Below are positions 58,111 through 63,163 of a stretch of DNA of 64,000 nucleotides, piece by piece. Numbering within the stretch: the first letter of the stretch is position 1; every line of letters starts with the position of its first letter. The translations under genes were made by a program, and so were the position numbers. The notes under the pieces were generated by a model. The model worked only from the letters and a program-made list of their open reading frames with translations, did not search any database and was not told where the DNA came from. The stretch is from Halobacteriovorax marinus SJ (lineage in GTDB: Bacteria > Bdellovibrionota > Bacteriovoracia > Bacteriovoracales > Bacteriovoracaceae). The stretch is from NCBI RefSeq assembly GCF_000210915.2, contig NC_016620.1:868001-932000 (forward strand), given 5' to 3'.

Positions 58111-59076
58111 CTATTCAATGGCCCTTTTTGGGTGCCTATCTGGATGAATAATTCTCGAGTATGAGTCCATCTTTGGATTGAAAATAAAATTCAAAAGAAC
58201 TCTAGTCCACGACTGGTATGATTTTAAATTATCGTAGTACTCAGGAGCTGCTTTTTTAAGCTCTGGTAATCGACTCCAAGGGATGTGCATAAAGTCGTGA
58301 TGTTCATTGTGGTAGCCCATATTAAATGTAAGCTTATTTAAAATTCCATAGTAGGAGTATGTCTCCTGTCCCTCTTCGGTAATATAGTGTTCTTGAATCC
58401 ATCTTCCACCAAGCGGGTGAAGTCCTAGAGCAAAGAGAGTTGATAGAGCTAGGTAGATAAGTGCACCTGGCCCAATAAAGAAGTAAATTGCAATATTAAC
58501 GGCGACAATGACAATCGTATTGATTACAGACCAGCGATCAAGTGGCTTATAGTATTGTACTTTTAGTGGTCGAAGGGCCTGAGAGAGTGAGAATAGCGCC
58601 AACCAGAGAGCTTTTTTAAAAGGATTATTACCAATTAAATCAGCTTCTAATCTACTTGTAATATCTGGGTCGTATGAATATTCACCTAAGTGTTTATGAT
58701 GAATCATATGATACTTTCTAAAACCCATGGCTGATGGAAGAAAGAGTGGTAGATCACAAATAATACCCATAACCTTATTATAAAATGCTTTCTTAAAAAC
58801 AGTGTTGTGACAACACTCATGAATCATAACGTAGAGAGAGTGATTGGCCACAGCACCGACAGTATAACTGAGAATGAGAATTGCCCACCATGCCTGATCT
58901 TTAATTAAGGTCGCAAGAATAAATTGAAGAGTTACAATTAGTGAAATGTACAGAGCAGATAATGGGTTTGTACCATAGAGCTCTTTAACAGCAGGATATT
59001 TTTGTAAAATTTCGGCCCTTCTCTTAACGTGACAATTGACATCGTTAACAAGGGTGTAATCTCTCTTTTTTTCCAT
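58111..59076 (-). CDS. Dihydroceramide delta-4 desaturase-like fatty acid desaturase
   Basis: The 321-residue enzyme closely resembles animal DEGS/DES1 sphingolipid desaturases. The three histidine boxes are H86-ECC-H90, H123-MI-HH127 and H256-NE-HH260. The diagnostic stretches are RYHM-like KYHMIHHKHLGEYSYDPDI, GLHPLGGRWIQEHY, ETYSYYG and GYHNEHHDFMHIPWSRLPEL. The N-terminal HVKRRAEILQKYP and C-terminal SYSRI also fit DEGS. It would insert a double bond in a sphingoid chain, using a di-iron centre, at the inner membrane. Some fatty-acyl desaturases share the fold, so substrate needs proof. Confidence 0.85.
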   Translation of the reverse strand: MEKKRDYTLVNDVNCHVKRRAEILQKYPAVKELYGTNPLSALYISLIVTLQFILATLIKDQAWWAILILSYTVGAVANHSLYVMIHECCHNTVFKKAFYNKVMGIICDLPLFLPSAMGFRKYHMIHHKHLGEYSYDPDITSRLEADLIGNNPFKKALWLALFSLSQALRPLKVQYYKPLDRWSVINTIVIVAVNIAIYFFIGPGALIYLALSTLFALGLHPLGGRWIQEHYITEEGQETYSYYGILNKLTFNMGYHNEHHDFMHIPWSRLPELKKAAPEYYDNLKSYQSWTRVLLNFIFNPKMDSYSRIIHPDRHPKRAIE

Positions 59077-61923: not shown

Positions 61924-62748
61924 ATGGATTTAAAAAATATTTTAGGATTTGGTGTCGCAGGTAATTTTGCTGGGCATCTTGAACAAGCAAATGAGGCAAG
62001 TGACTTTAAAAATATAGAAGTTAGTGAAGTGAATCAGCCCAAAGCAATTTTCCCTTTCTATATTCCAGAGAAGGAGAACTCTTTTCTCAATGTATTTCCA
62101 TTTTCATCACATCAAATCAATATGCCCGATACAGACTATGACGTACAAATCGAGCCTGAAGTTGCCCTGCTTTGTAATGTAGAATATAGAGAAGGTAAAA
62201 TCTCTGCTCTAATACCAAAGAGTTTTGCTGCTTATAATGATTGCTCTATTAGAAGACCTGGAGCAAAGAAGATAAGTGAGAAAAAGAATTGGGGAGAGTG
62301 TTCTAAAGGTCTATCCAATAGCTTTATTACCATCGATGAATTTTCTAAGGGTGGAATTCTAGACCACTATAGGATTGCGAGTTTTCATATAAGAGATGAA
62401 AAGGTTTATATTTACGGCGAAGATAGTGCAGTAAAGAGCTATTCATATCTATATGAGAAATTAATTAATTGGAGTATAGATAAATTTAATAATCAGGCAG
62501 ACATAGGTCCTGCAGAAAATATCAGCGAGTATATTGCTCAGGCCGGATATCCTTCTCAATTTATCATCGGAATTGGTGCGACTAGATATACTGACTACGG
62601 TGAGAATAATTTCTTATCTCGTGGTGATACAAGTGTTGTTGTTCTCTATGATGAAAGAGTTTATAGCTCTCAAGATATAGCTGTGAAAGTAGAAAAGAGA
62701 GACTATAGTGGAGAGTCTCTCTCATTTCTAGTTCAAGAAGTTAAATAA
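61924..62748 (+). CDS. DUF5718-family protein
   Basis: The 274-residue protein begins LGFGVAGNFAGHLEQANEASDF and contains VALLCNVEYREGKISALIPKSFAAYNDCSIRRPGAKKISEKKNWG, which fit the DUF5718 family. The middle resembles the fumarylacetoacetate-hydrolase style of fold, with polar residues PEVALLC and NDCS, but the function is unknown. It follows csoR by nine bases and may be co-transcribed with the copper operon. Its end overlaps the convergent MAPEG gene by eight bases. Confidence 0.7.
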   Translation: MDLKNILGFGVAGNFAGHLEQANEASDFKNIEVSEVNQPKAIFPFYIPEKENSFLNVFPFSSHQINMPDTDYDVQIEPEVALLCNVEYREGKISALIPKSFAAYNDCSIRRPGAKKISEKKNWGECSKGLSNSFITIDEFSKGGILDHYRIASFHIRDEKVYIYGEDSAVKSYSYLYEKLINWSIDKFNNQADIGPAENISEYIAQAGYPSQFIIGIGATRYTDYGENNFLSRGDTSVVVLYDERVYSSQDIAVKVEKRDYSGESLSFLVQEVK

Positions 62749-63163
62749 ACTTAATTAATAGATTGATACTCATTAAGACTAAAATAAGCCAACCCGCTCC
62801 AAAGCTTAGCATTCTTAGGGGAAGCTTATTGGTTGTTATGTGAACGAGAGTGTGAATTATTCTTGATGCTAGAAAAAGCCACGCCAATGTCATCATTAAA
62901 GGTGTCACATTCCCTGTGACAAAAGTGATAAGACAAAGAAAGTAAAATAGTGGAGGGGCCTCTTGAAGATTGGAGAAGTTTCTTTGTGCCTGAATTGTTT
63001 TAACCGCCTCTGTCTGTCCTGTTGAATATGTCTTAAAGTGACCAGGTGTAATTTCTCCCTTTTTTAGTCCGCGCATACGTCTATTAAACATGATATTTAA
63101 AACTAGAAAAGTAAGTAGAATTAAAATTAAACATGGAACAAAAATAATTTGCGGATTTGACAT
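62741..63163 (-). CDS. MAPEG-family membrane protein
   Basis: The 140-residue protein has four hydrophobic segments. RNFSNLQEAPPLFYFL is the MAPEG signature (N-x-x-E-xPP-F). Eukaryotic members are glutathione- or leukotriene-metabolising enzymes; bacterial ones are little known. ASRIIHTLVHITTNKLPLRMLSFGAGW is also typical. It stands alone and is divergent from the HIT gene. Confidence 0.85.
   Translation of the reverse strand: MSNPQIIFVPCLILILLTFLVLNIMFNRRMRGLKKGEITPGHFKTYSTGQTEAVKTIQAQRNFSNLQEAPPLFYFLCLITFVTGNVTPLMMTLAWLFLASRIIHTLVHITTNKLPLRMLSFGAGWLILVLMSINLLIKFI

Follow-up and report, generated by a model that had tools for sequence, protein, structure and literature searches.

A DEGS-family protein of Halobacteriovorax marinus belongs to a widespread bacterial family and probably oxidises the sphingoid base of ceramide

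Background

In the literature that we found, bacterial sphingolipid genes have been assigned to serine palmitoyltransferase (SPT), the formation of ceramide, hydroxylation of the N-acyl chain and head groups, and no paper there describes a bacterial gene that gives the base its sphingosine-like character. The pathway of Caulobacter and E. coli B is encoded by spt, aca/bcerS (yghO) and epi/cerR, where YghO is the counterpart of Caulobacter CC_1154, a protein required for dihydroceramide formation (PMC9386255). A different FA_desaturase-family protein of Caulobacter, the DesA-family CC_0202, hydroxylates the N-acyl chain (PMC11324152). The closest described relatives of the protein studied here are eukaryotic: DEGS1/DES1 (human, Drosophila ifc, Arabidopsis) and DEGS2/DES2, a bifunctional enzyme that performs desaturation and C4-hydroxylation, both from the same fold (PMC10140171). 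Here we describe a DEGS-family protein encoded in a window of the Halobacteriovorax marinus SJ genome, the window being the whole stretch of 64,000 nucleotides that was analysed (NC_016620.1, positions 868,001 to 932,000; Table 1).

Results and discussion

Membership of the DEGS family

The protein encoded at 58111-59076 is a member of the DEGS family, with a sequence similarity far beyond chance. A BLASTP comparison with human DEGS1, for which we used a sequence that is not a database record but itself scores 5e-21 to PF08557, gives 131 identical residues over 317 (41%) with 7 gapped positions, 234 bits and an E value of 7e-80. In Pfam the protein matches FA_desaturase (6.5e-32) and PF08557 (Lipid_DES, sphingolipid delta4-desaturase), the latter at 35.8 bits against a curated cut-off of 23; none of 14 control genomes contains a PF08557 match. 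The FA_desaturase core carries the HX3H, HX2HH and HX2HH boxes intact, as HECCH, HMIHH and HNEHH. The pairing of PF08557 with PF00487, the length (321 versus 323 aa), the three histidine boxes, ETYSYYG and the C-terminal YSR are all shared with DEGS1/DES1. A preliminary description of the locus had likened the protein to DEGS1 along its length and not just at the histidine boxes, and the alignment bears this out. The individual stretches it quoted need one correction: HNEHHDF, GLHP...EHY, ETYSYYG and YSR do align with human DEGS1, but within GLHP...EHY the H. marinus protein has GGRW where eukaryotes have SGHF, so that it reads GLHPLGGRWIQEHY and not the eukaryotic GLHPISGHFIAEHY (GLHPxxGHFIxEHY). 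The loop after box 1 is also two residues shorter than in animal DEGS, and the partner that would form ceramide is another one than in eukaryotes, a YghO-type acyltransferase.

Table 1. Features of the window discussed in the text, with positions counted from its first nucleotide
Feature	Position	Strand	Remarks
Predicted DEGS-family dihydroceramide C4-desaturase (or C4-hydroxylase)	58111..59076	-	putative membrane di-iron enzyme, 321 aa, ATG start
Lipid_DES domain, N-terminal (residues 4-39)	58960..59067	-	PF08557, 5.3e-9
Histidine box 1, HECCH (residues 86-90)	58807..58821	-	H86, H90 invariant in 50 bacterial homologues
Histidine box 2, HMIHH (residues 123-127)	58696..58710	-	H123, H126, H127 invariant in 50 bacterial homologues
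GLHPLGGRWIQEHY subfamily signature	58384..58425	-	motif table: bacterial RW versus GH(F/Y), which includes eukaryotes
Histidine box 3, HNEHHD (residues 256-261)	58294..58311	-	H256, E258, H259, H260, D261 invariant in 50 bacterial homologues
Weak Mpo1-like protein, 169 aa	57593..58102	+	PF06127, E 0.0038, below curated cut-off
MAPEG-family membrane protein	62741-63163	-	PF01124, 1.2e-23

The general FA_desaturase match would also suit an ordinary desaturase of acyl lipids or fatty acids with no relation to sphingolipids. We regard that reading as very unlikely, given the PF08557 domain, the 41% identity to DEGS1, the close association with SPT and ceramide synthase, in occurrence and in gene order, described below, and the separation of the protein from the other desaturases of the genome. 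These comprise three further FA_desaturase proteins, all distant, the nearest of them at 23% identity (E 2e-6). Elsewhere in the genome there is a tandem pair of FA_desaturase-family genes (G000:C1:1530091-1531596, L121).

An AlphaFold2 model built from an alignment of 50 bacterial homologues has a mean pLDDT of 93.9 and a pTM of 0.90. Among solved structures the model scores best against two chains from FtsHi motor complexes of the chloroplast (Z 18.5 and 17.0), followed by AlkB, a di-iron alkane hydroxylase (Z about 15), and, more weakly, by stearoyl-CoA desaturase (Z about 7). A predicted fold like that of AlkB and SCD1 fits a membrane oxidase with a histidine-bound di-iron site. A sequence search returned no solved structure of a DEGS relative.

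Ceramide genes in H. marinus

Searching the genome for sphingoid-base genes, as the preliminary description had envisaged, uncovered SPT, a YghO-type acyltransferase and a CerR-like reductase, which we take as sequence evidence that dihydroceramide is supplied in the organism that carries the DEGS gene. They lie together at about G000:C1:1166136-1170988. The SPT is the sole gene in the genome to match SPT; it reaches 8e-145 to the NCBIfam model SerpalmtaseCFB (Bacteroidota-type), yet falls below the cut-off of that model, and its closest solved relatives are bacterial SPTs. Adjoining it on the same strand is a GNAT acyltransferase with 37% identity end to end with E. coli BL21 YghO, and beside it, again on the same strand, an SDR protein resembling CerR (25%, 4e-21 to the E. 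coli B epimerase/dehydrogenase, the CC_1164 counterpart). The opposite strand encodes a PAP2 protein and an Scs7-like 2-hydroxylase of fatty acids; among solved structures the latter comes closest to the yeast ceramide fatty acid hydroxylase Scs7 (PDB 4zr1, 3e-29), and its gene is kept in all 26 relatives examined. The gene pepN is also near SPT. Compared with the Caulobacter and E. coli B pathway, H. marinus has counterparts of all three steps but an SPT of the Bacteroidota/delta type, with the Scs7-like hydroxylase and DEGS as additions; beside its SPT we saw no dedicated ACP or acyl-ACP synthetase.

The preliminary description stated that predators of the Bacteriovorax type contain sphingophosphonolipids. 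The remark applies to B. stolpii, but the H. marinus genome has no match to PEP mutase (TIGR02320), a model matched in 30 other genomes of the class, 22 of them above its cut-off. Lipids of the B. stolpii type can therefore not be assumed here, and we rejected a sphingophosphonolipid head group for H. marinus.

Association of DEGS with ceramide genes across bacteria

The class was sampled with 129 genomes, of which 43 encode DEGS and 71 an SPT proper (46% identity or more). SPT is present in 41 of the 43 DEGS-positive genomes versus 30 of the 86 DEGS-negative ones (Fisher p 5.5e-12); counted by genus, the figures are 20/20 versus 13/28 (Fisher p 6e-5), and tests at these two levels correct in part for shared ancestry. 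The two DEGS-positive genomes without SPT are drafts with a completeness of 84%. Elsewhere in the phylum SPT accompanies DEGS in 16 of 18 genomes, among them every one of the 13 with a completeness of at least 90% and a contamination of no more than 5%. Beyond the phylum about 31 of 37 DEGS-bearing genomes encode a protein like SPT (identity 41% or higher), while the other six, mostly Cytophagales, have more distant relatives only. The Flectobacillaceae Sandaracinomonas (L088) and Aquirufa (L105) carry DEGS genes in genomes that show distant alpha-oxoamine synthases only, so that the DEGS substrate there may be another long-chain base. Within the genus of H. marinus, DEGS is missing from two of five species (G043 and G046, both with SPT and the Scs7-like hydroxylase), which makes it an accessory gene in the genus.

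In H. marinus itself 240 kb separate DEGS from the ceramide locus, a distance that we count against the desaturase reading, together with the accessory status of the gene and the six DEGS-bearing genomes of other phyla that lack a close SPT. In relatives the genes can be adjacent. One genome (G069) has the contiguous order pepN, PilZ gene, SPT, bCerS, Scs7-like gene (reverse), DEGS; in three others (G048, G050 and G051, the last being Bacteriovorax sp. UBA1852, L092) DEGS and SPT are some 5 kb apart, pepN lying between them in G050 and G051. Since pepN is near SPT in H. marinus too, DEGS may have left the locus in this genus, or joined it elsewhere. G016 has the order bCerS, CDP-alcohol phosphotransferase, DEGS, and G017 the order DEGS, LysE-like gene, C-terminally extended PEP mutase, phosphonopyruvate decarboxylase. 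The Flammeovirgaceae MAG L051 has PEP mutase, phosphonopyruvate decarboxylase and AEP aminotransferase to one side of DEGS and, to the other, CDP-alcohol phosphotransferase together with acyl-chain enzymes and bCerS; in L045, a MAG with a Rickettsiales label, DEGS shares a cluster with SPT, bCerS, ACP, acyl-chain enzymes, a nucleotidyltransferase and CDP-alcohol phosphotransferase. Such ceramide-cluster arrangements in unrelated bacteria are our strongest evidence, drawn from gene order, that the family would work on ceramides. We stress that a ceramide gene within 6 kb of DEGS is the minority situation, most of the best 80 of at least 585 loci being without one.

The two MAG clusters can be described in more detail. 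Positions 1-12918 of L051 (Flammeovirgaceae UBA7330) form an apparent ceramide-aminoethylphosphonate cluster, in which the PEP mutase is a fusion, the bCerS is a YghO-type acyltransferase and a PLD-like protein is also encoded. The same interval of L045 (Rickettsiales NP5 label), again with bCerS of the YghO type, holds more FA_desaturase-like genes, a KAS, a dehydratase and an SDR. An apparent SPT linkage at L063 was dropped, because the match sits among biotin genes and reads as BioF.

Origin and subfamilies

The preliminary description treated a DEGS in a bacterium as unusual. In our scan, for which each species was represented by a single genome, a relative is encoded at 585 or more bacterial loci, and the best 80 of these come from Bacteroidota, Myxococcota, Bdellovibrionota, Ignavibacteriota, KSB1, Gemmatimonadota and others. 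The nearest relatives of the H. marinus protein are all bacterial (a congener at 87% identity, followed by the rest of the class at 75-50%), and maximum-likelihood trees place it in a separate Bdellovibrionota clade (100/99) that also takes in a single MAG with an Epsilonproteobacteria label. Eukaryotic DEGS, represented by four sequences that are not database records but that we treated as usable (mutual identity 47-65%), groups instead with Myxococcota and an aberrant Bacteriovoracaceae protein, L002 (99/93). Forcing the eukaryotes together with the H. marinus clade costs 140 log units (AU p 1.9e-7). Of the two origins that had been offered, transfer and an ancient bacterial lineage, the trees, on this sampling, reject the former, as an acquisition from a eukaryote, and favour the latter; notwithstanding the 41% identity to the animal enzyme, a recent acquisition of this kind is extremely improbable.

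The position of eukaryotic DEGS beside Myxococcota suggests that the eukaryotic enzyme has a bacterial root. With outgroups as distant as those available the root of the tree is uncertain, and the bacteria-to-eukaryote direction is accordingly read from the nesting. In IMG/VR no eukaryote-type DEGS was found. L002 (634-1623, in the Bacteriovoracaceae UBA7317 genome G120) lies outside the clade of its own family and shows 46-52% identity to the animal and plant DEGS used; it is probably a second, horizontally acquired DEGS type. Another homologue, L005 (1199-2176, G035), has HLIHN in place of HLIHH as its second histidine box and may therefore be inactive.

A motif table divides the family at the stretch in which the H. 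marinus protein departs from eukaryotic DEGS. The GH(F/Y) subfamily comprises eukaryotes, Myxococcota, Ignavibacteriota and part of Bacteroidota; the (G/A)RW subfamily comprises the H. marinus clade and its bacterial relatives, with members in Bdellovibrionota that it shares with Bacteroidota, KSB1 and Gemmatimonadota. The biochemical kind is already known from eukaryotes. In the searchable literature, outside which most subscription papers lie, we found no described bacterial DEGS, RW subfamily or placement of DEGS in ceramide or ceramide-phosphonate clusters, so that, as far as sequence comparison goes, the bacterial branch, the RW subfamily and the cluster context appear to be additions to what has been described.

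Proposed function

From the ceramide genes in the genome, the co-occurrence with SPT and the clusters in relatives, the sphingoid base is very probably the substrate, and we are confident that the enzyme would oxidise the base of a ceramide. As to the main product, we favour, with clearly less assurance, the 4,5-alkene, that is, we hypothesize that the protein is a dihydroceramide delta-4 desaturase. In the pathway that we infer, including its catalytic activity, desaturation outcome, order of steps and electron donor, SPT would condense serine with acyl-CoA, the YghO-type acyltransferase and the CerR-like reductase would yield dihydroceramide, and the Scs7-like hydroxylase would put a 2-hydroxyl on the N-acyl chain; the DEGS enzyme, with a di-iron site held by its histidines, would then use O2 and two electrons to remove hydrogen at C4 and C5 and give a sphingosine-type ceramide.

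The main competitor is a protein that acts mainly as a dihydroceramide C4-hydroxylase, forming phytoceramide, or as a bifunctional enzyme like DEGS2, which belongs to the same family and likely shares the substrate. B. stolpii is, to our knowledge, the only member of this order whose sphingoid bases are known, and these are reportedly iso-C17 phytosphingosine and dihydrosphingosine, with no sphingosine. Together with the dual activity of DEGS2, this keeps C4-hydroxylation a serious proposal, the more so as no Sur2-type hydroxylase was clearly recognised beside SPT in H. marinus, and a second FA_hydroxylase (L037:17739-18629) is closest, weakly, to OlsE. Against it, the sequence around box 1, HECCHNTVFKKAF, shows no close resemblance to either of the mammalian proteins. 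On balance we consider C4-hydroxylation unlikely to be the principal outcome, although it is the foremost alternative to desaturation.

The replacement of HF by RW in a conserved His-rich stretch means that regiochemistry could differ, and this subfamily signature is one reason to consider action on a sphingoid-type lipid with another regiochemistry or substrate, be it a free or keto base, a capnine-like sulfonolipid or the N-acyl chain. Some DEGS-bearing Cytophagales, moreover, have only a distant alpha-oxoamine synthase, a possible maker of another long-chain base, and CC_0202 provides a precedent for N-acyl hydroxylation within the same superfamily. CC_0202 itself is no DEGS, since PF08557 is absent from Caulobacter, which was among our controls; in H. 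marinus its role is better filled by the Scs7-like enzyme, which would already serve the N-acyl chain. Given also that the catalytic region is otherwise conserved with DEGS1, we judge another regiochemistry or substrate improbable, and retain delta-4 desaturation of dihydroceramide as the working assignment.

Neighbouring genes

The Mpo1-like gene lies tail-to-tail with the desaturase gene across an 8 bp gap and is near DEGS in one congener (G045). A tie of this gene, a putative 2-hydroxy fatty acid dioxygenase, to sphingolipids is only suggested; as the genome encodes an Scs7-like 2-hydroxylase, a role in alpha-oxidation of released 2-hydroxy acids is conceivable. CopA, CsoR, DUF5718 and MAPEG form a block conserved in the genus beside the DEGS gene, to which we draw no functional link.

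Conclusions

We tentatively propose, as a scheme about which we have more doubt than conviction, a large bacterial family of dihydroceramide-oxidising enzymes with two subfamilies: GH(F/Y), the source of eukaryotic DEGS, with a myxobacteria-like bacterium as the probable donor, and an RW subfamily that is confined to bacteria and has shifted chemistry. If this is true, the predatory Bacteriovoracia would combine bacterial and eukaryote-like steps in one mosaic pathway leading to ceramides that are unsaturated or 4-hydroxylated. A widespread bacterial DEGS family tied to ceramide clusters makes the formation of sphingosine-like bases directly testable, and leads us to expect sphingoid bases with a double bond or a 4-hydroxyl in predatory bacteria, Myxococcota and many Bacteroidota. 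In environmental samples, sphingosine-type lipids should thus not be taken as purely eukaryotic by default. The placement of the eukaryotic enzyme within bacterial diversity would also bear on how eukaryotes acquired their sphingolipid pathway.
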